DNA from: Acidimicrobiia bacterium
GTDB taxonomy: Bacteria > Actinomycetota > Acidimicrobiia > Acidimicrobiales > Acidimicrobilacustridaceae
DNA length: 56,552 nt
Direction of reading: 5' to 3'
NCBI GenBank assembly: GCA_020832495.1
Contig: JAFIEP010000025.1
Location: 1 to 56,552, forward strand
The notes under the pieces were generated by a model. It did no database searches and was not told the DNA's origin. It saw nothing but the letters and a program-made list of their open reading frames with translations. How positions within the stretch are numbered: the first letter of the stretch is position 1; each line of letters starts with the position of its first letter. A program made the position numbers and the translations under genes. Below are positions 3,062-56,552 of this stretch, one piece after another.

Positions 3062-3895
3062 ATGACCGTGCGCATCGTGACCGACAGCTCGTGCGACCTG
3101 ACTGCAGAGGAGGCGGCGGAGCTCGGCGTGCGCATCGTGCCGTTGAGCATCCACTTCGGGGAGAAGACCTACACCGATCGGGTGGACCTCTCCGCCGACG
3201 ACTTCTACCGCACCATGTCGTTGGTGCCGGAACTGCCCGGCACCTCGGCGCCGTCGCCGGGCTCGTTCGAGGAGGCGTTCCGCGGTGCCGCCGCCGAGGC
3301 CGATGCCGTGGTGTGCATCACCATCTCGAGTGAGCTGTCCGCCACCATGCAGTCGGCGGTGACCGCCGCCAAGACGCTCGAGGGTGAGATCGACGTGCGG
3401 GTGGTCGACTCGAAGTCGATCACATCGGGGCTGGGCACCATCGTCATCCACGCCGCCCGGGCTGCGGCCGAGGGGGCCGACGCCGAGAGCGTGTGCACCC
3501 TCGTCGACGAGTTGTCGGCCCGCACCCGGGTGTTCGGGGCGCTCGACACGCTCGACAACCTGAAGAAGGGTGGTCGCATCGGCGGCGCCCAGGCGCTGTT
3601 GGGCTCGATGCTGTCCATCAAGCCGGTCATCGACATCTCCACCGGCGTGGTCGAGCAGGCGGCCAAGCCCCGCACCCGCCGCAAGGCCATCGAGTGGCTG
3701 CGCGACAAGGTCGTGGCCGACATGCCCGTCGAGGACCTGTGCGTCACCCACGGCAACGCTCCCGACGTCGAACAATTGCTCGAGGCGTTGAACGAGCACG
3801 TGCCGCGCGACCAGATCCGTGTGGGCACCATCGGCGCCGTCATCGGTGCCCACGGTGGCCCGCGGGTGCTCGGCGTCACCTACCTCACCGGTTGA
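3062..3895 (+). CDS. DegV family fatty-acid-binding protein
   Basis: 277 residues, the normal DegV length. The N-terminal signature IVTDSSCDLT and the later GTSAPSPGSFEEAF, NLKKGGRIGGAQALLGSMLSIKPVI and GAVIGAHGGPRVLGV blocks are diagnostic of the EDD fold. DegV/FakB proteins bind a single fatty acid and, in Firmicutes, hand it to the FakA kinase; no fakA is present in this window. Monocistronic: the next gene has its own promoter about 100 bp downstream. Confidence 0.88.
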   Translation: MTVRIVTDSSCDLTAEEAAELGVRIVPLSIHFGEKTYTDRVDLSADDFYRTMSLVPELPGTSAPSPGSFEEAFRGAAAEADAVVCITISSELSATMQSAVTAAKTLEGEIDVRVVDSKSITSGLGTIVIHAARAAAEGADAESVCTLVDELSARTRVFGALDTLDNLKKGGRIGGAQALLGSMLSIKPVIDISTGVVEQAAKPRTRRKAIEWLRDKVVADMPVEDLCVTHGNAPDVEQLLEALNEHVPRDQIRVGTIGAVIGAHGGPRVLGVTYLTG

Positions 3896-3988
3896 CGCTC
3901 CCGGGCAGACCGCTGCCCACGGCGGTGCCGACGGGCCCGTTGCACGGTTCGGCGCGCCGGTTGACTCCCGTCGGGCCCGTCACCCCGG

Positions 3989-4001
3989 TACGGTCCTGAG
4001 C
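3989..4001 (+). promoter_or_regulatory. leaderless promoter of the kinase gene
   Basis: TACGGT (3989-3994) lies seven bases before the GTG at 4002, with no ribosome site in between. This is the leaderless layout seen repeatedly in this window. Confidence 0.4.
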
Positions 4002-5390
4002 GTGCCCGAGGCTTCTGAGCCCCCTGCTGCCGCGCCCGCGGCCACGACCGCCGCCGTCGGCCAGGTCCTCGCGGGCCGCTACCAGCTGGAGCGACTGTTG
4101 GCCATCGGCGGGATGGGCGAGGTGTGGCGAGCGCACGACAACGTGCTGGACCGCCCCGTGGCCGTGAAGGTGCTGCACCGGCACCTCGCAGCGGAGCCCA
4201 GCGTGCGGGTGCGTTTCGAGCGCGAGGCCCGCGGCGCCGGCCGCCTGCACCACCCCCACATCGTGCGCATCTACGACACGTGCACCGGCGAGGGGCTCGA
4301 AGCCATCGTGTTGGAGTTGGTCGACGGTCCCACCCTGCGCCAACTGCTCGACCGCCACAGCCCGCTCGACGCCACCACCGTGCGCACGCTCGGCATCGAG
4401 ATGGCCGGCGCCCTCGACGTGGCCCACCGAGCGGGGCTCATCCACCGAGACATCAAGCCAGCCAACATCTTGCTGGCCCCCGACGGTCGGTTCCTGCTCA
4501 CCGACTTCGGCATCGCCAAGGCCATGGACGCCTCCGAGCGAACGGCCACCGGTGCGATGTTGGGGTCGGTGAAGTACGTGTCCCCCGAGCAGGTGCAGGG
4601 CCACGCCGTCGACGCCCGCAGCGACCTGTTCTCGCTCGGCATCGTCCTCTACGAGTGCCTGGCCGGCCGGGTGCCGTGGCAGGGCGACTCGGCCACCGCC
4701 ACCGCCTTCGCCCGCCTGCAGGCGCCCCCGGCGCCACTGGCCGCCGCCGCACCTGACGCCCCCCAGGACCTGGTGGCGGCCATCGAGGCCTGCCTGGCGC
4801 TCGACACCGCCGACCGACCGGCGTCTGCCGAGGACCTGGTCGAGCTGCTCCGCCACCGCCGCGCCGCCCCACTGCCCGGCACCGTGCCCGGACGCTCAGG
4901 TGGCGGAACCACAGCCACCACCGCCGACCGGCGACCCCACGGCGACGGCACCCACGGCGAACCACCGATCCGGGCGCGCCAGGAGCAGGACCCCACCCCG
5001 CCCCAGGGCACCGCCCTGCCAGGGGCAGCCGACCTCGACGCCACCGCTGCCCACACGGTCACCACGGCCCAGCCCGCTGCGCCGCCGCCCGCCCCTGGGC
5101 CTGCCACCGCCGCCGGCCGGCCGGCGCCCCGACCGTCTGCCCGGCCACCCGCCGCGCAACCAGCGGCGCACTCGATGCCCACGGGGCCCGACCGGCCGCC
5201 GTCGTCGCGCGACGTGGCCCCGCGCCGCCGACGCTGGGTGGCCCCGCTGGTCATCAGCATCCTGATCCTCGTGGCCTTGGTGGTGGCTGCGATGCTGGTG
5301 TTGGGCACCGAGTGGGGCCAGCAGTGGCTGGACGACCTCGACCTGAGTGGGGCCACGGCGGCCAGTGTCATCGGCGAGGCCCGACCGTGA
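4002..5390 (+). CDS. PknB-type membrane Ser/Thr protein kinase
   Basis: 462 residues from GTG 4002. Kinase domain about 25-285: Gly-rich loop AIGGMGEV (34-41), catalytic Lys56 in VAVKVL, HRD at 148-150 followed by IKPANILL, DFG at 168-170, and SPEQVQG in the P+1 region. A Pro/Ala/Thr-rich linker (about 290-405) leads to one transmembrane helix near 412-435 and a short extracellular tail of about 25 residues, with no PASTA or other sensor domain. The sigma factor gene starts inside its stop codon, so kinase, sigma factor and anti-sigma candidate probably form one operon, and the kinase may modulate that sigma pathway (inference). Confidence 0.88.
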   Translation: MPEASEPPAAAPAATTAAVGQVLAGRYQLERLLAIGGMGEVWRAHDNVLDRPVAVKVLHRHLAAEPSVRVRFEREARGAGRLHHPHIVRIYDTCTGEGLEAIVLELVDGPTLRQLLDRHSPLDATTVRTLGIEMAGALDVAHRAGLIHRDIKPANILLAPDGRFLLTDFGIAKAMDASERTATGAMLGSVKYVSPEQVQGHAVDARSDLFSLGIVLYECLAGRVPWQGDSATATAFARLQAPPAPLAAAAPDAPQDLVAAIEACLALDTADRPASAEDLVELLRHRRAAPLPGTVPGRSGGGTTATTADRRPHGDGTHGEPPIRARQEQDPTPPQGTALPGAADLDATAAHTVTTAQPAAPPPAPGPATAAGRPAPRPSARPPAAQPAAHSMPTGPDRPPSSRDVAPRRRRWVAPLVISILILVALVVAAMLVLGTEWGQQWLDDLDLSGATAASVIGEARP

Positions 5391-5989
5391 CCCCCGCCAG
5401 CGGAGGGAGCCGTCGCCGCTTCGACGACGTCGACGACCCCGCCCTGGTGCAGTGCGCGCAGGACGGCGACCGCCACGCGCTCGACGCGCTGCTCCGTCGC
5501 CACCAGAGCCGCATGTACGGCATCTGTCGGCGCATGGCCGGCAACGACGCCGACGGCGCCGACGCCACCCAGGAAGCCATGGTGGCCGTGGTGCGGGGGC
5601 TCCACCACTTCGACGGGCGGGCCAAGTTCACCACCTGGCTGCACCGGGTGACGGTGAACGCCTGTCTCGACGAGCTCCGCCGGCGCACCCGCCGACCCGA
5701 CCCCGGGCTGCCCGAGACCGAACACGCCCCACCCGGCGGCCCACCGGCACTCGACGACACCGTCGGCGACCGGATGGCCATCGACGACGCCTTGGCCACG
5801 CTGGGCCCCGAGTACCGGGCGGCGGTGGTGCTGCGGGACCAACTGGGGCTCGACTACGCCGAGATCTCCGAGGTGCTCGAGGTGCCCGTGGGTACCGTCA
5901 AGTCACGCATCGCCCGCGGCCGCGGTGCGCTCGCCGACCGCCTCGGGAACCAATCGGCCCGCTCCGACGTCGAAGCACCTGAACGATGA
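5387..5989 (+). CDS. sigM: ECF RNA polymerase sigma factor, SigM-like
   Basis: 200 residues from GTG 5387, which overlaps the kinase stop. Region 2 (ALDALLRRHQSRMYGICRRM through FTTWLHRVTVNACLDELRRR) and region 4 (ALATLGPEYRAAVVLRDQLG, YAEISEVLEVPVGTVKSRI) are both complete. The gene precedes an anti-sigma candidate, trxB and trxA exactly as sigM does in mycobacteria, where SigM responds to envelope and oxidative stress. The symbol rests on this synteny. Confidence 0.85.
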   Translation: MTPASGGSRRRFDDVDDPALVQCAQDGDRHALDALLRRHQSRMYGICRRMAGNDADGADATQEAMVAVVRGLHHFDGRAKFTTWLHRVTVNACLDELRRRTRRPDPGLPETEHAPPGGPPALDDTVGDRMAIDDALATLGPEYRAAVVLRDQLGLDYAEISEVLEVPVGTVKSRIARGRGALADRLGNQSARSDVEAPER

Positions 5990-6008
5990 CCCCCGGACGA
6001 ACAGCGCC

Positions 6009-6962
6009 ATGACCACCCCCACCCCCACCCCCGACACCGACGAGCTGCTCAGCGCAGTGCTCGACGGCGACGCCTCCGCCGAGGAGGAGGCCCGCGTCCT
6101 CACCGACCCGGCGCTGGTCAGCCGCCTCGGGCAACTGCGCGCCGCCGCCGCGGCCGTGGCCGAGCCGGTGACGTGGCCAGCCGACGCCGGCGATCCGGTG
6201 GCCACTGCGCTGGCGCGCACCGGGGCCACCGCTGACCACGGCCCCTCAGCCGTCGTCGGCCCCGCCGACGCCCGGGCGGGCGGTGGCCCGGACACGCCGA
6301 CCGAACGACCGGGTGTGGTGGACAACACGCTGGATGCCCGTCGGGCACAGCGCGTGTACACCGTGCTCGGCGCGGCGGCCGCCGTGGTGATCATTGGCCT
6401 GGTCGCCGTGGCCATCACGTCGTCACAGGACGACACCGTCGACGTGGCGTCCTCACGCGCCGCCACCGAACGGTTCGAGGACGTCGGCGATGCCATGGCC
6501 GACGCCGAGATGTTCGACGGTGACATGGCCGACGAGGCCGACCTGTTCGCTGACGACGAGATGGCCGCCGGAGCACCTGAGGCGATGTTCGACAGCGTCG
6601 ACCCGCCGGTGACCACCACGACACCGGGTCCACCGCCGATCGACCTGGGCGGGTTGAGCCCGATCGATTCGCGGTTCAAGCTGGACACCTTGGCCGCCGA
6701 GGTGGCCGACCTGCTGGCCACGCCGGCCGCGCAGCGCTCCGATGACGCCGGATCAGACGCCACCGTCGGCGAATCGACCGTATCCGCCTTGGCGGTGCTG
6801 CGCGAGACGTGTGCGCACCTCGGGCTCGGCCCCGACCTCGAAGCTGTGGGGTTGGTCCTCGTGGAAGGGCTGCCGTACTTCTTCACGGTGCAGGACCGAG
6901 CGCTCATTCTCTACGAGCTGCCCGACTGCGAGCCGTCACTGCGCGCCCCGCTGCCCCGCTGA
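6009..6962 (+). CDS. membrane anti-sigma factor candidate (RsmA position)
   Basis: 317 residues from ATG 6009. A short acidic cytoplasmic domain (DTDELLSAVLDGDASAEEEARVL), rather like the start of anti-sigma domains but without a zinc HxxxCxxC motif, is followed by a disordered stretch, one transmembrane helix at about 116-138 (TVLGAAAAVVIIGLVAVAIT) and an acidic extracellular part. The C-terminal 70 residues contain two Cys (ETCAH, PDCEP). It follows the sigM-like gene by 19 bp, where mycobacteria have rsmA. The anti-sigma role is inferred from position and topology. Confidence 0.65.
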   Translation: MTTPTPTPDTDELLSAVLDGDASAEEEARVLTDPALVSRLGQLRAAAAAVAEPVTWPADAGDPVATALARTGATADHGPSAVVGPADARAGGGPDTPTERPGVVDNTLDARRAQRVYTVLGAAAAVVIIGLVAVAITSSQDDTVDVASSRAATERFEDVGDAMADAEMFDGDMADEADLFADDEMAAGAPEAMFDSVDPPVTTTTPGPPPIDLGGLSPIDSRFKLDTLAAEVADLLATPAAQRSDDAGSDATVGESTVSALAVLRETCAHLGLGPDLEAVGLVLVEGLPYFFTVQDRALILYELPDCEPSLRAPLPR

Positions 6963-33229: not shown

Positions 33230-33324
33230 CACGCGTGAAGTTCACTGTCGTTGTCTGAGATTTCCTAAAGTCTCCCCCGGGGATGCTCCGATACCGGGGC
33301 AGTGGCCGACACGGAGGGAGACCG

Positions 33325-34173
33325 ATGGGCCAGCTGAGGGGGAATGGGTTGGACCACTCTGTCTTGATCGAGCAGCATCTGCCGCTGGTCAAGCACGTGG
33401 TGTTCCAGGTGGCGGTGCACTTTCCGCGTCACGTCGATCGGGAGGAGCTGGCGCACGCCGGCGCCCTCGGCCTGGTCGAAGCGGCGCGGCGCTACGACGC
33501 CGACCGTGGGGTGCCCTTCGAGCGGTTCGCCGCTCAGCGCATCCGGGGGGCCATCCTCGACGCCGTGCGGGCGGCCGACTGGGCGCCGCGCTCGGTGCGG
33601 AACCTGTCGCGTCGACTCGAGGCGGCCGAGCAGCAACTGGCCTCGGAGCTGGGACGGGTGCCCAGCATCGACGAGATGGCCGAGGCCCTCGACATGACGC
33701 CCGACGACCTGCGCCGCATCCAGGCCCGGGTGTTCCGTTCGGTGGTGTTGGCCCTCGAACACGAGGTCTACGACAGCACCGAGGACGACCTCACCCTGGT
33801 GGACGTGTTGGCCGACCGGGCCACCCTCGAACCCCTGGAGGAACTCGAGGCGCGTGAGCTGCACTCCTACCTGCGCGACGCCGTCGGGCTCCTGCCCGAG
33901 CGCCACCGGTTCGTGGTGGTCGGCTACTTCCTCGAGGGCCGCACCAGCCAGGACCTGGCTCGGTTCCTGGGCGTGACCGAGTCCCGCATCTCTCAGCTGC
34001 GCTCCGAGGGCCTGGCCATGCTCAAGGAAGGCATCGAGGCCCAGTACGCCGGTCGCACCGCCCCCGCCGACGGCCTGGTCGGCCGCACGGCTCGTCGTAA
34101 GGCCACCTACGCCAACGCCATTGCGGGGGCCAGCGACTGGAAGCACCGCCTCTCCCAGCGTCGTCCCGACTGA
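33325..34173 (+). CDS. FliA/WhiG-type RNA polymerase sigma factor
   Basis: 282 residues from ATG 33325 (GGAGGGAGACCG before it). Region 2 (HLPLVKHVVFQVAVHFPRHVDREELAHAGALGLVEAARRYD, FERFAAQRIRGAILDAVRAADW), region 3 (SVRNLSRRLEAAEQQLASELGRVPSIDEMAEAL) and region 4 (LPERHRFVVVGYFLEGRTSQDLARFLGVTESRISQLRSEGLAML) match the flagellar/sporulation sigma group. No flagellar gene is near, so the regulon is unknown. A basic 35-residue tail is an extra. TAAAGT about 50 bp upstream may be its -10. Confidence 0.9.
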   Translation: MGQLRGNGLDHSVLIEQHLPLVKHVVFQVAVHFPRHVDREELAHAGALGLVEAARRYDADRGVPFERFAAQRIRGAILDAVRAADWAPRSVRNLSRRLEAAEQQLASELGRVPSIDEMAEALDMTPDDLRRIQARVFRSVVLALEHEVYDSTEDDLTLVDVLADRATLEPLEELEARELHSYLRDAVGLLPERHRFVVVGYFLEGRTSQDLARFLGVTESRISQLRSEGLAMLKEGIEAQYAGRTAPADGLVGRTARRKATYANAIAGASDWKHRLSQRRPD

Positions 34174-37913: not shown

Positions 37914-38456
37914 ATGGACGAGCTCACCGAGGTGGCGATGGCGGCCGGTCGCGGCGACCGCCGTGCCCTCGAGGAGTTCGTTCGTCGCACCCAAGCCGAG
38001 GTGTGGCGGCTGTGCGCTCACTTGGTGGACCGGGGCGCAGCCGATGACCTGACCCAGGACACCTACATCCGGGCCATGGGATCACTCGGCCGTTTCGAGG
38101 GCCGTTCGTCGGCGCGCACCTGGTTGCTCGGTATTGCCCGTCGGGCCTGCGCCGATGAGATCCGGCGACGGGTGCGCGGCCGACGCCGCCAGGAACACTT
38201 GCTCGAGCGGGCTCGCACCGAGAGCTCCGCTGCTGTCGGCGGCCCGGAGCGGTCGGTGCCGTTGGTGGCGCTCCTCGACGCCCTGTCGCCCGACCGACGC
38301 GAGGCGATCGTGCTCACTCAGCTGTTGGGACTCTCCTACGCAGAGGCGGCCGAGGTGTGCGACTGCCCGGTGGGCACCATCAGGTCACGGGTGGCGCGAG
38401 CTCGCGAGGAGCTGGTGGCCGCCACCGGCGAGTCGGACGCCGAGCAGCATGGCTGA
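37914..38456 (+). CDS. ECF RNA polymerase sigma factor (SigC-like arrangement)
   Basis: 180 residues from ATG 37914. Region 2 (ALEEFVRRTQAEVWRLCAHLV, DDLTQDTYIRAMGSLGRFEG, RTWLLGIARRACADEIRRR) and region 4 (LDALSPDRREAIVLTQLLGLSYAEAAEVCDCPVGTIRSRVARAREELV) are complete. No anti-sigma gene follows. It is divergent from the copper genes and overlaps the ABC ATPase gene by 8 bp, so a link to copper or metal homeostasis is likely (inference). Confidence 0.88.
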   Translation: MDELTEVAMAAGRGDRRALEEFVRRTQAEVWRLCAHLVDRGAADDLTQDTYIRAMGSLGRFEGRSSARTWLLGIARRACADEIRRRVRGRRRQEHLLERARTESSAAVGGPERSVPLVALLDALSPDRREAIVLTQLLGLSYAEAAEVCDCPVGTIRSRVARAREELVAATGESDAEQHG

Positions 38457-39318
38457 ACCCGCTCGGTCGGACGAGCACACCCCCCAGCGCGGTGGTGGTC
38501 CCGATGTCATCGTCGCCCGTGGGGTCACGGTGACCAGGGGCAATCATGTGGCCTTGGTGGCCGACGACCTGCGGGTCCCCACCGGCGCCTTCACCGCCGT
38601 CGTCGGCCCCAACGGGTCGGGGAAGTCCACCCTGTTGCATGCCGTGGCCGGGCTGTTGGCGGTCCGCAGCGGCACGTTGTCGGTGCTGGGCACCACCCCG
38701 GTCGCCGGGCGACGCTCGGTGGCCTACGTGTTGCAGTCCGCTGCAGTGAACCCGTCGTTGCCCATCACCGTCCGCCAGGTGGTGGCCATGGGCCGCTACA
38801 GCACCGTCGGGCTCCTCGGCCGCCCGTCGCGGGCTGATCGCCAGGCGGTGGCCGAGGCCCTCGAGCGGGTGGAACTGTCCGACCTCGCCGACCGGCAGTT
38901 GCGGGAGCTCTCCGGCGGTCAGCGGCAACGAGCGTTCGTGGCGCAGGGACTGGCCCAGCAGGCCGACCTGTTGCTGCTCGACGAGCCGATGAGCGGCCTC
39001 GACATGGTCTCCGCAGAGGCCATCCTGGCCATCGCGGCGGAGGAACGAGATGCCGGTCGCAGCGTGGTCATGACCACCCACGACCTCGACCACGCCCGCC
39101 TGGCCGACCACTTGGTGGTGTTGTCGGGCAAGGTGGTCGCCCAGGGGCGACCGGCGGAGGTCCTGGTGCCCGACGTGCTCCGTCGCGCCTACGGCTCGCG
39201 GCTGTTGGTGCTCGACGACTCCACCGTGGCGGTGGTCGACGACGCCCACCACCACGCCACGGGTGCCGACCACTCGTTGTGCGCCCACGACGACGAGCAC
39301 GACCCGCCGCCCGGATGA
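38449..39318 (+). CDS. metal-type ABC transporter ATP-binding protein with His/Asp tail
   Basis: 289 residues from ATG 38449, overlapping the sigma factor stop by 8 bp. Walker A GPNGSGKST, signature LSGGQRQRAFVAQGL, Walker B LLLLDEPMSGLD, H-loop TTHDLDHA. The sequence looks most like Zn/Mn (ZnuC/MntB-type) ATPases. The C-terminus ends in DDAHHHATGADH and CAHDDEHD, probably metal-binding. No permease or binding-protein gene is adjacent; the next gene is convergent, so its membrane partner must be elsewhere. Confidence 0.82.
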   Translation: MAEPARSDEHTPQRGGGPDVIVARGVTVTRGNHVALVADDLRVPTGAFTAVVGPNGSGKSTLLHAVAGLLAVRSGTLSVLGTTPVAGRRSVAYVLQSAAVNPSLPITVRQVVAMGRYSTVGLLGRPSRADRQAVAEALERVELSDLADRQLRELSGGQRQRAFVAQGLAQQADLLLLDEPMSGLDMVSAEAILAIAAEERDAGRSVVMTTHDLDHARLADHLVVLSGKVVAQGRPAEVLVPDVLRRAYGSRLLVLDDSTVAVVDDAHHHATGADHSLCAHDDEHDPPPG

Positions 39319-40312: not shown

Positions 40313-40441
40313 GGACGCGGTGCACATCGGTGCACCTCCGCCATCGAACTGACCGGGCAGCGATCGTCCGGGCATGTCGTGTGCTGCAGGCGCCAGCCGG
40401 GTGGTGAGCCAAGGGGGCGACCGGTACTCCGGGAGGACGAC

Positions 40442-42694
40442 GTGGCAGACCAAGAATCGGGATCATCGGCCGCAGGGCCCCTGCAGGAGACCGTCAGTCG
40501 TGCGCAGGTACGCCGCGAGGGCGACGAGCGACTGGCGGCATCGCTGCGAGTCGGTGACGACGAGAGCTTCGGTCGCCTGTACGACGCCTGGATCGATCCG
40601 GTTCACGACCACCTGGTGAACGCCGGCCTCGAGGGTGCGGAGCTGGACGAGGCGCTGGCCTCGGTTTTCTCCCGGGCCTGGGAAACGGTGAATGGCGGGG
40701 GAGGCGAAGCCTTCGGTGTGGTCGTCATGCGGTTGGCAGAAGGAGCCACCCGCGGGCGTCTCACCCCCGGTGGTGCGTCGCCCGTCGAGGTGTCGCCGGC
40801 ACCTGAGGACCGGCTCACCAAGGCCACCAGCCTCGGTTCTGCGGCGGGTGACCCCCAGATCACCGCCCTGCTGTGGCAGTCGGCGGCAGCCATGGGACCG
40901 CGCGGTCGCGAGACGCTCGACCTGCACTTCCGGCACGGACTGACGGCGGACGAGATCGCCGCCATCACCGGACGTTCCGCCGGTGAGGTGTCGGAACTGA
41001 TCACCAAGTTGCCGGCGGCCTACGACCAGGTGGTGCGCGCCCGGGTGTTGTGGCGCGGCGGGCGACCCGACGATCCGGCGCTGGCCGAGGCCCTGGGCGG
41101 TCGCACCGACGTGTTCGATGCCGACACCGTGCGCACGGTGGTGCGCCACCTGCGGTCCGACAGCAAGGCGCGGGCCCGGTCGATGGTGCCGCTGGGGCCC
41201 ACCGCCATCTTCGCGGCGATGCCCTTGGCCACCGCCGGACGCACGCTGAAGCGTTCGACGGCCACCTCCCTGGTGGCCGCAGGTGTGCCGCTGGGGCGCT
41301 CGGAGTTCGCCCCCGACGCTGCCTGGTCGAGCGACACCGACGTGGAGGAACCGACCGAGACCGCCGCAGCGGTGGTCGACGAGGCGCCCACCACCCCGGA
41401 GCCGGCCGACGAGGCGGGTTCGGACGACGCCGCGGCGGACACCGTCGGTGTGGCGGCGGTCGCTGACAGCACTGACGTGACCGACGAACCCGAGCCCGCA
41501 CCCGGCGACGCCGCCGGACCGGACGCTGCTGCCGACACCGACACCGACACCGACGCTGCTGCCGACACCGAGGACGAAGCGGACGACGACGATGCCGGTG
41601 CGGCAGGTGGCGCACTGGTGGCCGGAGCCGCCGCCGGTGGGCTGGTCGGTGCCGCCGCTGCGGGGGCTGCTGGCGCCGCGGAACCGGACGGTGACGAACC
41701 CATCGGCTCGGCCGAGGCCGACGAAGCCGCCGCTGACGACGCTGCGACCACTGACGGCGAACCCGACGGCTTGGACGACGGCGCTGACGACGCCGACGCC
41801 ACCGAGGAGGTGCCGCTGGTGGCGGCTGCCGCCGGCGGAGCAGGTGCCGGAGCCGGCGCTGGTGCAGCGGGTGGTGATGGCCTCCGCGGCGAGCCCACCG
41901 AACCGGTCAGCACGCTGTCGGGTCGTCCGGCCAGCGAGACCCACTACGAGCCCACGCCGGAACGCAACCGCACAGGCCTCTACGTCGGGGCCGGGGCCGC
42001 GGCCGCCGTGGTGGTGCTGATCGTGGCGCTCATCGTGTTCTCCGGAGGCGACGACGACGCCGACCTGGCCACGGGCGAGGGCAGCGTGGCGCGCGCCGAC
42101 CCCTCGGAGACGACGACCACACCCCCGCCGCCCACTCGACCGCCGCTGACCACCACCACGACCACCGAGGCACCCCTGGTCGAGGAGATCGAAGAAGAGA
42201 TCGAGGAACTGATCGAGGAACTCGAGGACGAGCTCGTGGTGACGACCACCGTGGCGCCTGGTGGTGGCGGCGGCGGTGGTGGCGGCGGCGGCGGTGGCGG
42301 TGGCACGAGCCCCGGCCCGGGTCCGGTCCCGGGACCGACGCCCACGACCGCACCTCCTCCCATCACCGCACCCCCGATCACGGCACCGCTGCAGTGGAAC
42401 TCGGGTATGAGCCTGCTTCCCGACCAGCGAATCTCGTCCGGTGGAACCCCGCCCACGCTCAGCTGGAGCGTCACAGCCAACCGCAACGTGGTGTCGGTCC
42501 AACTCTTCGGACCTGGGACGCCGAACGGCGGGGTCGGTGTGAGTGGGTCGATTCCCGGGATCTGTCCCGTCCCAGTGCAGGACGGAAGGTGCAATGCCAA
42601 CCCTGGTCCGTATCAGTACCGTCTGCGCGCACAGTTCCAGACCGGTGAGGTGCTGGAGGACGTGCGTACGCTCACGATCACCGAGCCGAACTGA
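40442..42694 (+). CDS. membrane-anchored sigma-factor-like protein with extracellular domain
   Basis: 750 residues from GTG 40442 (GGGAGGAC upstream). Residues ~35-95 resemble ECF region 2 (LRVGDDESFGRLYDAWIDPVHDHLV, DEALASVFSRAWETV) and ~140-205 resemble region 4 (WQSAAAMGPRGRETLDLHFRHG, TADEIAAITGRSAGEVSELI). A ~280-residue acidic Ala/Asp/Thr linker with Ala/Gly runs follows, then a transmembrane helix (GLYVGAGAAAAVVVLIVALIVF, about 520). Outside: Thr/Pro-rich spacer, a Glu-rich coiled coil (EEIEEEIEELIEELEDEL), sixteen Gly in a row, a Pro/Thr stretch, and a ~90-residue beta domain with two Cys (CPVPVQDGRC). Region 4 is better conserved than region 2. Whether it still binds polymerase is unknown. 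Confidence 0.7.
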   Translation: MADQESGSSAAGPLQETVSRAQVRREGDERLAASLRVGDDESFGRLYDAWIDPVHDHLVNAGLEGAELDEALASVFSRAWETVNGGGGEAFGVVVMRLAEGATRGRLTPGGASPVEVSPAPEDRLTKATSLGSAAGDPQITALLWQSAAAMGPRGRETLDLHFRHGLTADEIAAITGRSAGEVSELITKLPAAYDQVVRARVLWRGGRPDDPALAEALGGRTDVFDADTVRTVVRHLRSDSKARARSMVPLGPTAIFAAMPLATAGRTLKRSTATSLVAAGVPLGRSEFAPDAAWSSDTDVEEPTETAAAVVDEAPTTPEPADEAGSDDAAADTVGVAAVADSTDVTDEPEPAPGDAAGPDAAADTDTDTDAAADTEDEADDDDAGAAGGALVAGAAAGGLVGAAAAGAAGAAEPDGDEPIGSAEADEAAADDAATTDGEPDGLDDGADDADATEEVPLVAAAAGGAGAGAGAGAAGGDGLRGEPTEPVSTLSGRPASETHYEPTPERNRTGLYVGAGAAAAVVVLIVALIVFSGGDDDADLATGEGSVARADPSETTTTPPPPTRPPLTTTTTTEAPLVEEIEEEIEELIEELEDELVVTTTVAPGGGGGGGGGGGGGGGTSPGPGPVPGPTPTTAPPPITAPPITAPLQWNSGMSLLPDQRISSGGTPPTLSWSVTANRNVVSVQLFGPGTPNGGVGVSGSIPGICPVPVQDGRCNANPGPYQYRLRAQFQTGEVLEDVRTLTITEPN
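41522..41571 (+). repeat. 20-bp direct repeat with GACACC hexamers in the linker
   Basis: GACGCTGCTGCCGACACCGA occurs at 41522-41541 and 41552-41571, separated by in-frame GACACC hexamers. It encodes the Asp/Ala/Thr linker of the sigma-like protein and could change length in frame. Confidence 0.6.
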
Positions 42695-52390: not shown

Positions 52391-55268
52391 AGTCGACCAC
52401 CAGCGCCGGATCCACCGGCACGGGCCGGACCCGGTCTCGCAGGCTGGTGGCTGCCCAGGTGACCGCCGCGGCGGCCAGCGGCGCGCCGACCACCAGGGCG
52501 AGGATCGTCGGCCAGTCCACTCGCAGCTCGCCGAGCCCGACGTTCGAGGCGGCGGCCACTGCCGCCACCGGAGCGAGCCCGGCGGGGAGCGCCACCAGCG
52601 CCGCACCTCCGACCGTGAGGGCGGCGGCGGTCACCGACATGGCGCGCAGCCGCCGTGGTCCGGCACCCACCGCAGCCAGCACCACCCGCTCCTCGCGTCC
52701 GTCGCGACCGGCGAGGGCCAGGCTGAGCGCCATGACCGCCACCATGAGCGCCACCGCGCCGCCCAGGACGGCGGCCCGGACCTGCACCTCGGTCCACCCG
52801 GAGTCGTGGGGTCCGACACTGATCTCGATGGCCGTCGATGGCTGGCCGATCAGGGCACCGAGGCCGTTGTCAGCGTCGGCCTGCCACCGGAGATCGTCAG
52901 CCAGCAGTTCCACGGCACCGGCCTGGGCGGCGCTCAGGCCGTCAGGGGTGTCGACCACCCACATCGAGGAGGGGACGCCGTCGAGGCGCTCGGCCACCGA
53001 CGGCGACACCCACATCGCCGGCAGCCGCCACGCCACCCGATCGCTGGTCACGACGGTGACCGACAGGGCGATCGGGTCCCCGTCGCGGTCCACCAGGGTG
53101 ACGGTGGCATCGGCTTCGTCCACGTCGAACGGCAGCGGGAGGCCGGGGACATAGCCGCCCGAGGGGTGCGCCAGGGCCACGGCGTGGCCGTCGGCGATCG
53201 ATTGCCGGACGTGGGCCGGCAGGTCGAGGACGTCGAGGGTGTCCTCGGTGGCCACCCCCACCGGTGACGGCAACAGGCCGGAGGCCTGGGGCGGCGGCTC
53301 GCCGGGGTCGGAACTCTCGGGGTCGGGGACGACGGGCGGCGCGTCGGCGTGTACGGCGCTCACCTCGGCCACGGTGTCCACCCGGGTGGCCTCGGCGTCG
53401 GGTCCGACGGCGGCGGCGACGTCGGCGGCCACCTCGGCCAGCTGGTCGGCGTCGACGGCCCCGGCGGGTCCCAAGCTGGAGATCAGCACGGTGCCCGGTG
53501 GCGTCTCGGGCACGTATGCGTCGATGGCACGCCAGCCGCCGGTGGTGGCCAGCGTGGTGGAGAGGGCCACCACCACGGTGGCGGTGACGCAGATGGAGGC
53601 CACCGTGGCGCTGGCGCGCACCCGACTGCGCTCGAGCCCACGTGCGGCCAGGTGGGCGGTGGCCGACCGACGCCCGACGAGGCGGGCCATGAGCGACACC
53701 ACCCACGGCGACAGGACGCAGATGCCGGCCAGGACCGCCACCCCGCCGAGGACCCCGACCGTGGCGCCGATGTTCCCGCTGGTTCGCCACACCACCGCCA
53801 GGGCGGCCAGCGCAGCGCCGCTGCCGACGAGCAGCCATCCGACGACCGGCACGCGGGCCTGCACCGGGTGGGTGGGCACCCGTCCGGCCAAGGCGGTGAG
53901 CACCGGCAGGCGCGCCGCTCGGAGGGCGGGCACGGCGGCGGCTCCCACGCCGCAGGCCACCGCCAGCAGCGTCACCACGGCGACGTCCAGCGGCGTGGTC
54001 CACGGCACGGTGATCGCCCGGTCCACGGCGGAGGACCAGCGGGCGTCCCCGATGGCTCGGAGCAGGCCGTTGGTGGCGAGCACGGCCAGCACGGCACCGA
54101 GGAACGCAGCGGCCGCCCCCTGGGTGACGAGGATGCGGACCAGCCGGCGAGGTGGGGCGCCGGCGGCGGCCAACAGGCCGATGCGGTGGAGCTGTGCCCG
54201 TGCGCTGACAGCGAAGGCGGCGGCCACCAGCACGCCGGTGACGGCCAGCAGCAGCGCGCCGGCCACCGACACCGCTGCTCGGGGGCCGGCGGCGCCCTCG
54301 TCCCAGCCCCAGGTCGTCCACCTGGCGGCGTCGAGCTCCAACAGCCCGGCGCGGGAGAGTTCGATCGCCGGTCCCATGATGAGGTCGTCGGGCGGCTCGA
54401 TGGGGATGCCGTCCACCTCGAAGGTGTCGGTGCGGTCCCGGGCCGGAGGGTCGGCCGCCTCGGTCGGCGGCCCGACCATGCGGTCCGAGTCGCCGTCTGG
54501 GGTTCGGTCCCGTGCTTCGGTGAAGGTGTCCGCCAGCTCGGCGTCCACGGCGGTCCGCATCGCCCAACGGCTGTCGCGGTCGTCGACGCCGGCCACGTCG
54601 ATGAGCATCGTCTCTGCCCGTGCCGGCTCGTCGTCGAGCGTGCCGGGCGCCACGTGGGCGGCGCGGGTGCCGTAGGGAGAGCGGTAGCGCACGGTGCCCA
54701 CCACGGTCATCTCCTCGTCGGTCACCTGTGGGCGCACGGTGTCGCCGATGGCCACCCCCAGCGTCTGGGCCAGCGGCTCGGTGAGCACCACCTCGCCTGC
54801 CGAGGTGGGTAGGCGACCCGACAGGCCGGTGAACCGGTCGCGGGTGAGGGGGTGGTCGAGGGGAAGGTCGGTCAGGACGAAGGCGGCGGCCACGTCGTCG
54901 AGGCGCACCCGTTCGCGCACCGTTCGCTCGGTGAGCCAGCGACTCTCGTCGGGAAGGACGTCGGTGAGCAGCTCGTCGACGACCGGGGTGAAGCGTGCAT
55001 CGGCATCGAGGAGCGGGGTCAGCTCGTCGACCGGGACCTCCCTGGGCAAGGTGAGGGTGTGGTAGCGGTCGGCGTAGAGGACGAGGTCGACGGTGCCGTG
55101 CACCTCGGCGTGGCGTTCGGCCGCCGGGACTCCGAGGTGACTCACCCAGGTGAGCGCCACCAGGGTGGCGGTGCAGGGCACGGCCACCAGTAGCGCTACC
55201 AGCGCGAAGCGCAGCGGCCGCCGGCGCAGCTCGCGTCCGGCCAGGCGGAGGTCGAGGGGCACCCTCAT
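52389..55268 (-). CDS. FtsX-like ABC transporter permease
   Basis: 959 residues from ATG 55268, overlapping the ATPase stop (ATGA). N-terminal helix (RFALVALLVAVPCTATLVALTW), then a large extracellular domain and the first FtsX-like core (GALLLAVTGVLVAAAFAVSA, AAAAFLGAVLAVLATNGLLRAIG), a second extracellular domain, and a C-terminal pair of helices (GGAVALMVAVMALSLALAG, AALTVGGAALVALPAGLAPVAAVAA). This is the MacB/LolCE-type exporter that works with the adjacent ATPase, possibly on antimicrobial peptides, lipoproteins or envelope components. Confidence 0.88.
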   Translation of the reverse strand: MRVPLDLRLAGRELRRRPLRFALVALLVAVPCTATLVALTWVSHLGVPAAERHAEVHGTVDLVLYADRYHTLTLPREVPVDELTPLLDADARFTPVVDELLTDVLPDESRWLTERTVRERVRLDDVAAAFVLTDLPLDHPLTRDRFTGLSGRLPTSAGEVVLTEPLAQTLGVAIGDTVRPQVTDEEMTVVGTVRYRSPYGTRAAHVAPGTLDDEPARAETMLIDVAGVDDRDSRWAMRTAVDAELADTFTEARDRTPDGDSDRMVGPPTEAADPPARDRTDTFEVDGIPIEPPDDLIMGPAIELSRAGLLELDAARWTTWGWDEGAAGPRAAVSVAGALLLAVTGVLVAAAFAVSARAQLHRIGLLAAAGAPPRRLVRILVTQGAAAAFLGAVLAVLATNGLLRAIGDARWSSAVDRAITVPWTTPLDVAVVTLLAVACGVGAAAVPALRAARLPVLTALAGRVPTHPVQARVPVVGWLLVGSGAALAALAVVWRTSGNIGATVGVLGGVAVLAGICVLSPWVVSLMARLVGRRSATAHLAARGLERSRVRASATVASICVTATVVVALSTTLATTGGWRAIDAYVPETPPGTVLISSLGPAGAVDADQLAEVAADVAAAVGPDAEATRVDTVAEVSAVHADAPPVVPDPESSDPGEPPPQASGLLPSPVGVATEDTLDVLDLPAHVRQSIADGHAVALAHPSGGYVPGLPLPFDVDEADATVTLVDRDGDPIALSVTVVTSDRVAWRLPAMWVSPSVAERLDGVPSSMWVVDTPDGLSAAQAGAVELLADDLRWQADADNGLGALIGQPSTAIEISVGPHDSGWTEVQVRAAVLGGAVALMVAVMALSLALAGRDGREERVVLAAVGAGPRRLRAMSVTAAALTVGGAALVALPAGLAPVAAVAAASNVGLGELRVDWPTILALVVGAPLAAAAVTWAATSLRDRVRPVPVDPALVVD

Positions 55269-56029
55269 GACCGCACCTCGGTGCCGTGGGGTGCGTCGGT
55301 CTCGGCGCTGCTCACCGCCCGGGCGGCACCCCCGCCCTGTTCGGTGAGCACCCCGTCGCGCAGGCGCAGGATGCGCTCCGCGTGAGCGGCCAGGCGGGGT
55401 TCGTGGGTGACCACCACCACGGCGCAGCCGTCGTCGGCGGCCAGGTCGGCCAGCAGACCGAAGACAGCCTCGCTCGAGGCGGTGTCGAGGGCCCCGGTGG
55501 GCTCGTCGGCCAGCAGCAGGCGGCGCTGCCCGACGAGGCTGCGGGCGATGGCCACCCGTTGCTGCTGCCCACCGGACAGCGCGTCGGGGTAGCGGTCGAA
55601 GGGCGGCGTCAGGCCCACTCGTCGCAGCGCCTGGCGTGCCGCCGTGGTGGCCTCGCCGGCCGAGACGCCGTCCAGTTCGAGGGGGAGGGCCACGTTCTCC
55701 TCGGCGGTGAGCGTGGTGACCAGGTTGAGCCGTTGGAACACGACCCCCACGTGGTGGCGGCGCAGCGCAGCCAGCCCGGTGGCGTCGAGGGTGGCCAGAT
55801 CGGTGCCCTCGACGGTCACAGTGCCGCCGTCGGGTCGGTCCATGCCGGCGGCCAGGTGCAACAGGGTGGACTTCCCCGATCCCGAGGGGCCGGTCAGCGC
55901 CACCATCTCGCTGTGGTGCACGGTGCAGGTCACGTCGTGGAGGGCGACGATCTCGTCGGGTCCATCGCGGAAGCGCCGGTGGACGCCGGCCAGGGCGAGG
56001 GCCGGCGGGGATGTGGGCTGGGTGGTCAT
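55265..56029 (-). CDS. ABC transporter ATP-binding protein (MacB-type)
   Basis: 254 residues from ATG 56029. Walker A GPSGSGKSTLLHLAAGMDRP, signature ALSGGQQQRVAIARSL, Walker B LLLADEPTGALD, H-loop VVVVTHEPRLA. It powers the adjacent FtsX-like permease. ATG 56029 overlaps the stop of the PadR gene upstream, so the three genes form one operon. Confidence 0.93.
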   Translation of the reverse strand: MTTQPTSPPALALAGVHRRFRDGPDEIVALHDVTCTVHHSEMVALTGPSGSGKSTLLHLAAGMDRPDGGTVTVEGTDLATLDATGLAALRRHHVGVVFQRLNLVTTLTAEENVALPLELDGVSAGEATTAARQALRRVGLTPPFDRYPDALSGGQQQRVAIARSLVGQRRLLLADEPTGALDTASSEAVFGLLADLAADDGCAVVVVTHEPRLAAHAERILRLRDGVLTEQGGGAARAVSSAETDAPHGTEVRS

Positions 56030-56552
56030 GAGAGGCGCTCCGTGGGGTCGGTGCGGTCGGTCGTGGCCGGCTCGTTCTGCCGGGGGTCCGAGCTGGCGTC
56101 GGTGGGGTCGGTGGTGTCGGAGCTGACGTCGGTGGGGTGGGCCGAGGGCGCGGTCGGCCCGGCTCCGGCGGCGGCCGCTGCGGTGATGTGCATCTCGCAG
56201 CGGTCCAGCCAGTCGATGTCGGCGTCGAGGCGGGCGAGGAGGGCGTCGTGAGCCAGGCGCTCGGGGCCCGCAGCGCGGCGTCGTTGCTGGTGCTGGCCGC
56301 GGCGGAGCTCGTCGTAGAGCAGGTTCCGTTGGGTGTCGATGACGGCCAGTGCGGTGGTGGCCGATCGGCCGAGGGCCACCAGCACCTTGGTCAGCAGCTC
56401 GTCCCGTGGTGGTGCCTTGTCGCCGGATCCCGAGGCCAACCAGGCGGCCACCTCCCGCCGCCCGGCGTCGGTGATGGTGTAGCGGCGGTGGGTACGGCCG
56501 TCACCGTCGGCGCGGGCGGTGACGGGTTCGAGTTCGTCGACGAGACCGTCGC
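56026..56552 (-). CDS. PadR-family transcriptional regulator, 5' end missing
   Basis: Only the last 175 codons are present; the start lies beyond the window. The visible N-terminal part ends a winged helix (DGLVDELEPVTARADGDGRT, HRRYTITDAGRREVAAWL), the typical PadR wing with TxAGR. A helical domain follows (RDELLTKVLVALGRSATTALAVIDTQRNLL), then a charged Ser/Thr/Asp/Pro tail. PadR proteins are often repressors that respond to antibiotics or envelope stress, commonly paired with MacB-type exporters, as here. Confidence 0.8.
   Translation of the reverse strand, partial: DGLVDELEPVTARADGDGRTHRRYTITDAGRREVAAWLASGSGDKAPPRDELLTKVLVALGRSATTALAVIDTQRNLLYDELRRGQHQQRRRAAGPERLAHDALLARLDADIDWLDRCEMHITAAAAAGAGPTAPSAHPTDVSSDTTDPTDASSDPRQNEPATTDRTDPTERLS

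Follow-up and report, generated by a model that had tools for sequence, protein, structure and literature searches.

We describe a clade of membrane-anchored bacterial proteins that, judged by their residues, appear to have kept the fold of an ECF sigma factor and given up its function. The protein under study, 750 residues long, is encoded at positions 40442-42694 (stop codon included) of the window, the whole 56,552-nt stretch of Acidimicrobiia DNA analysed here; it and all its features lie on the forward strand. Profile search, structural model and phylogenetic tree agree on a predicted ECF sigma fold for this protein, and together they show its ancestry among membrane-tethered ECF sigma factors, which combine sigma2, sigma4, a zinc finger, a transmembrane (TM) helix and an outer domain. 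The loss of promoter- and core-binding positions throughout its clade, here called type B, while predicted fold, anchor and outer domain stay, is well supported by the alignments and models, and the window protein is very probably not a working sigma factor. Because the clade kept these parts and lost the promoter and core determinants, its sequences suggest that the retained parts serve some purpose other than transcription initiation. Our best explanation, which we put forward tentatively and with somewhat less than even confidence, is that the window protein acts as a transmembrane sigma mimic with an anti-sigma-type partner.

The open reading frame begins with GTG four bases downstream of GGGAGGA (40431-40437), a likely ribosome-binding site, and five of the seven type B members have a GTG start followed by S/A-D-D/Q at the matching place, in agreement with the frame and start given in the first-pass annotation. 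The chain opens with a degenerate sigma2-like part (residues 26-111, 40517-40774), which is recognised by fold and profile, has no Pfam region 2 match and has lost characteristic residues. A sigma4-like part with an altered recognition helix and a Pro at 191 (residues 138-204, 40853-41053) is indicated by a sub-threshold Pfam match, by fold and by alignment. Alignment also places a remnant of a ZAS-like zinc finger at residues 209-261 (41066-41224), where D211, H236, D240 and A243 replace C, H, C and C. The low-complexity linker that follows (residues 262-514, 41225-41983) is acidic, as had been claimed, with 59 Asp/Glu and 8 Lys/Arg, and its length is 253 residues, not the approximately 280 first given. 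Hydropathy places a single TM helix, also as annotated, at residues 515-533 (41984-42040), with Arg before it and Asp after it. Beyond the helix lie a Glu-rich segment of about 21 residues (580-600, 42179-42241), a run of 15 Gly residues (607-621, 42260-42304) that had been counted as 16, and a predicted Ig/PKD-like outer domain (approximately residues 650-749, 42389-42688) delimited by alignment and predicted fold. The Glu-rich segment had been taken for a coiled coil, and nothing similar was seen among the relatives printed; the proposed cysteine-bearing beta domain fared better, with Cys 708 and Cys 717 falling within the predicted beta sandwich.

The arrangement of sigma-like part, anchor and outer domain in one chain is upheld by relatives with the same layout. 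The frames of four other type B members (L004, L005, L007 and L009) are open through the sigma-like part, the TM helix and the C-terminal domain, and that of L006 is open until its contig ends ahead of the outer domain, which answers the earlier doubt about a frameshift in the linker. A frameshift or assembly fusion was ruled out because relatives in other Acidimicrobiales genera share this layout.

The sigma-like part lies at the edge of what the public family models recognise. In Pfam, the window protein had no match to region 2 and matched region 4 at 16.7 bits (E 0.005), below the curated cut-off of 24.1, and its match to the NCBIfam sigma70-ECF model was weak (21.2 bits vs a cut-off of 42.9); the statement that both regions could be read directly as motifs did not survive this comparison. 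A profile built from type B proteins only (6 rows) matched ECF sigma chains across both domains, with a best E of 1.4e-11. The AlphaFold2 model, computed from window residues 1-300 with 17 relatives (6 type B and 11 type A), reached a pLDDT of 89.3 and a pTM of 0.85, and may lean towards the sigma fold, 11 of its 18 rows being type A. Its best match in VIA-align was CnrH with CnrY (4cxf; Z 12.8, 153 aligned residues, 3.0 A, model residues 26-202), and further matches were SigW-RsiW (5wuq, Z 11.7), RpoE-NepR (9.9) and PhyR-NepR (2lfw, 7.5), all in a range below a Z of about 13 that can reflect a common helical arrangement. The top fold matches are thus sigma factors held by anti-sigma proteins. 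Foldseek alone, run with the same model against the PDB, returned nothing at 1e-3 (best 3e-3). Since middling Z scores come readily to helical models and intact sigma factors account for 11 of the aligned rows, we give more weight to the profile search.

A first scan of the genome contigs with the window protein as query gave no relative. The one other match to it in the window genome is L002, which matches Pfam regions 2 (42.3 bits) and 4 (27.8 bits) strongly and also carries HX3CX2C, a TM helix and an outer domain. Relatives were found in 14 of the 37 genomes of the family and 41 of the 148 of the order (both at 1e-3), and in 55 of the 296 of the class (1e-10), counts in which the weak matches include ordinary ECF sigma factors such as L049. 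Loci L025-L051 yielded 26 proteins for inspection (none came from L048), 24 of which have both HX3CX2C and a TM-like segment, and the chain of sigma, zinc finger, TM helix and outer part is therefore common in this order. These intact tethered relatives, with sigma2, sigma4, HX3CX2C, TM helix and outer domain, are referred to as type A.

Type B comprises the window protein, L004, L005, L006, L007, L009 and L010. We first delimited this set by eye, on the degenerate sigma2, and then put it to the test. A tree of 43 rows has these proteins on one side of a branch supported at 100/100, with a stem 0.95 changes per column long, and nests them in a group (98/96) that also holds L008, L017, L018, L019, L021 and L023; in a tree of 45 rows they are again a single clade (100/99). 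Four of the type B contigs carry names, all of metagenome-assembled genomes, assigned to Acidimicrobiales (two), Microthrixaceae (one) and Actinomycetes (one). The score of the class-wide search cannot separate divergent type B from type A proteins, L010 of type B falling inside the type A range at 183.5, and the diagnostic residues were checked in 28 loci from this search (L065-L092; L066 and L068 by eye, L075 and L084 with partial cover). One of the 28, L072 from genome G183 in another family of the class, is also degenerate, being without the Trp, the recognition-helix Arg/Lys and the zinc cysteines. The 45-row tree places it at the base of type B (98/89), a position that may be due to long-branch attraction because its branch is very long (1.91) and its DNA contains a masked stretch.

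Residues at positions that bind core polymerase and promoters are missing from type B. Pfam region 2 was recognised in none of the seven type B proteins vs all five type A proteins scanned. W94 and D74, which we take to be the region-2.3 Trp and the region-2.2 Asp, are kept in none of the seven, and position 191, presumably in the recognition helix, is Pro in all seven, whereas each of the 35 type A rows counted has Arg or Lys there. This position aligns with R178 of RpoE, which is named as a -35 contact in PMC7406223. Of 130 columns conserved in near type A proteins (7 rows), type B retains 48 and is variable at 78, and the remaining 4 are fixed in it for a different residue class; these four switched positions argue against plain decay. 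The hydrophobic core is retained, and over 83 columns in RpoE numbering the fraction kept is 0.64 for 7-45, 0.39 for 46-90, 0.66 for 125-160 and 0.33 for 161-185. Of the two ideas offered in the first-pass annotation, proteolytic release of a working sigma factor is disfavoured, and action as a decoy favoured, by this loss of core- and promoter-binding positions.

Further traits set type B apart. Every type A row that reaches the columns in question (33 to 35 of the 35) has C, H, C and C at 211, 236, 240 and 243. Four possible zinc ligands are kept in five of the seven type B proteins, as H, H, C, C in four and C, H, C, C in L010; the other two lack three or four of the usual ones, the window protein having D, H, D, A and L004 having D, R, S, T. 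Because the window protein and L004 are sisters in the tree (96/73), the alignment suggests that zinc binding was lost once, in their lineage. The linker between zinc finger and TM helix spans 137-288 residues in six type B proteins vs 46-168 in eight near type A proteins (P 0.003), and four of the six type B proteins measured have a run of 13-20 Gly past the TM helix, the longest in 20 type A proteins being 5. A TM helix is present in six of the seven. L010 (L057 8722-10110, genome G036) stops after a basic cluster where the helix would begin, no TM helix was seen downstream of it in other frames, and it is possibly a soluble form.

The outer domain, common to type B and near type A, was modelled from a 15-row alignment as a beta sandwich (pLDDT 88.8). 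Its fold matches are tied at a Z of 8.6 and lower, several of them PKD or Ig-like; the domain had no Pfam match in the window protein, and its profile had no significant match among PDB sequences (best E 0.011).

Sigma factors that carry their own membrane anchor are already on record. Self-tethered ECF sigma factors of Actinobacteria are described as ECF48, ECF52 and ECF53, and SCO4117 (ECF52) as a chain of sigma, zinc finger, TM helix, Pro-rich stretch and carbohydrate-binding module, in PMC5826349 and PMC8999054. The contrast drawn in the first-pass annotation, between a normally soluble sigma factor with a separate anti-sigma protein and a single chain, hence loses its novelty, the more so as intact tethered factors are common nearby. 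By published description, type A resembles these groups in layout (sigma, zinc finger, TM helix and outer part, with a Pro/Thr-rich outer stretch), and their TM helix follows the zinc finger much as residues 515-533 do in the window protein. In contrast to them, type B has no recognisable region 2 or recognition helix, and the window protein has no zinc site either; ECF52 carries a carbohydrate-binding module, and the outer domain of the window protein, in which Pfam recognised no such module, appears Ig/PKD-like. What is unusual is a clade of anchored proteins with a degenerate sigma part, and we found no such protein in the literature searched, which consisted of open-licence papers.

The closest functional parallel is PhyR of the alphaproteobacterial general stress response. 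As described in PMC4598750 and PMC8103513, PhyR is built like an ECF sigma factor whose promoter and core regions have degenerated, and it titrates NepR; according to the former, a review, CnrH-CnrY superimposes on PhyR-NepR. The window protein shares with PhyR an ECF-like fold and degenerate core and promoter regions. The two differ in that PhyR has a response-regulator receiver, whereas the window protein has a TM helix and an outer domain, and no receiver domain was matched by Pfam anywhere in its length. Their lineages differ as well, type B sitting inside the tree of tethered Acidimicrobiia sigma factors. PhyR binds the anti-sigma protein NepR, and by analogy the window protein may bind such a partner.

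If the window protein is a transmembrane sigma mimic, type B would no longer start transcription, and its sigma-like part would bind an anti-sigma-type partner. The simplest candidates would be a free-standing anti-sigma protein or, as the target that we consider most likely, the zinc-finger segment of a type A paralogue that is itself tethered. A signal at the outer domain would alter this binding, so that the real sigma domain of the partner would be freed or held; the action would be like that of PhyR on NepR, but from the membrane.

The distribution of the two types is weakly consistent with such a pairing. Near type A copies occur in six of the 37 family genomes, five of which also carry type B, which is found in two of the other 31 (Fisher P 0.0003, in a test that, like those below, treats genomes as independent though they are related). 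When 21 genomes of one small-genome genus are set aside, leaving 16, type B is present in 5/6 genomes with near type A vs 2/10 others (P 0.035); for any type A against type B, with the three distant copies of that genus also excluded, P is 0.15. Near type A copies thus accompany type B in five of its seven genomes, the exceptions being the window genome, which has only the more distant type A protein L002, and G036, in which no type A was found. Anti-sigma contact positions, taken from Table 2 of PMC7406223, were not better kept than other positions in a first test (P 0.34), and among conserved columns the kept fractions, 0.64 for contacts vs 0.48, did not differ significantly (P 0.08), in a test designed after seeing the first. 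At the positions equivalent to RpoE 47, 51, 150 and 178, type B has mostly or wholly different residues, which argues against the usual anti-sigma contact having simply been copied.

Gene neighbourhoods were compared all against all for six type B loci, the L002 locus and the window. Beyond the family itself, two genes are shared between other type B loci at 63% and 80% (L052 with L053, L052 with L054); against the six type B loci and the L002 locus, the window neighbourhood gave only weaker matches and no conserved neighbour pointing to another task. An ABC-ATPase-like gene two upstream of the window gene (38053-39315), matching a gene next to type B in L054 at 38%, was dismissed as generic, that L054 gene being nearer to window 55268-56500 (44%). 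Elsewhere on the forward strand of the window, 3819-6962 holds a Ser/Thr kinase (Pkinase, 148.9 bits), a canonical ECF sigma factor (region 2, 72 bits) and an overlapping ORF with one TM-like stretch and no Pfam match, which may encode the anti-sigma protein of that ECF sigma factor. A sigma-70 protein of the alternative-sigma kind, with regions 2, 3 and 4, lies at 33283-34173, and at 37914-38456 a short reading frame of about 180 residues looks ECF-like by eye. In genome G025 (L055, 697-7071), a distance of about 2.3 kb, which contains a transglycosylase-like gene, separates a type B gene from a near type A copy with an in-frame TAA.

Other readings account for parts of this evidence. The layout shared with intact tethered relatives, the predicted sigma fold and the sub-threshold region-4 match would suit a working self-tethered factor like ECF52 or IutY, whose N-terminal part is freed by proteolysis for unusual promoters. 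In IutY of Pseudomonas putida (ECF243), a sigma factor and a membrane anti-sigma part form one fusion, from which working sigma is released by proteolysis; a 2022 review names IutY as the only tethered sigma factor with experimentally characterised proteolytic activation (PMC8999054). The window protein has lost the residues for such work, and the absence of Pfam region 2, W94, D74 and the recognition-helix residues across type B makes this reading improbable. Decay to a pseudogene, or an assembly artefact, might be read from the lost functional residues, the low-complexity stretches and the draft state of the genomes; it is highly improbable given open frames of 612-796 codons in five type B relatives and 463 in L010, from separate genera, identities of 31-41% for the five relatives aligned, and residues fixed in type B but not in type A.

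Two further readings keep a function for the protein, and we consider either one unlikely. Type B might itself be an anti-sigma-like partner: with its zinc-finger part and the outer domain common to both types, it would hold the sigma domain of a type A paralogue, or join that paralogue in mixed complexes, and thereby keep it inactive. The possible zinc ligands in five type B proteins, the common outer domain and the near type A copies in the same genomes speak for such a partner, but the zinc site is gone from the window protein and L004. Alternatively, the sigma fold might be a structural leftover in a protein with a new task outside sigma control, such as an envelope sensor or scaffold, which would fit the long charged linker, the Gly runs, the residues fixed in type B only and the transglycosylase-like gene that comes next on the same strand in G025. 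Against it stand the preservation of both sigma domains and of the hydrophobic core despite large sequence divergence, and neighbourhoods in which no conserved gene points elsewhere. The transmembrane sigma mimic thus remains our preferred, if tentative, reading.

These proteins carry a warning for annotation, in that a weak region-4 match is insufficient for naming such ORFs sigma factors. Tethered sigma factors are known, yet their control has been little studied. We regard it as a rather doubtful but conceivable outcome that type B represents a second, independent invention of sigma mimicry, in which a duplicated tethered sigma factor became a transmembrane receptor. Its sigma-like part would strip the anti-sigma segment from intact paralogues or swap it, and a signal from outside would in this way be passed on to transcription by mimicry at the membrane. 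If the window protein is indeed a mimic, sigma mimicry would have a further origin beside that of the PhyR system, and this one in a membrane receptor.
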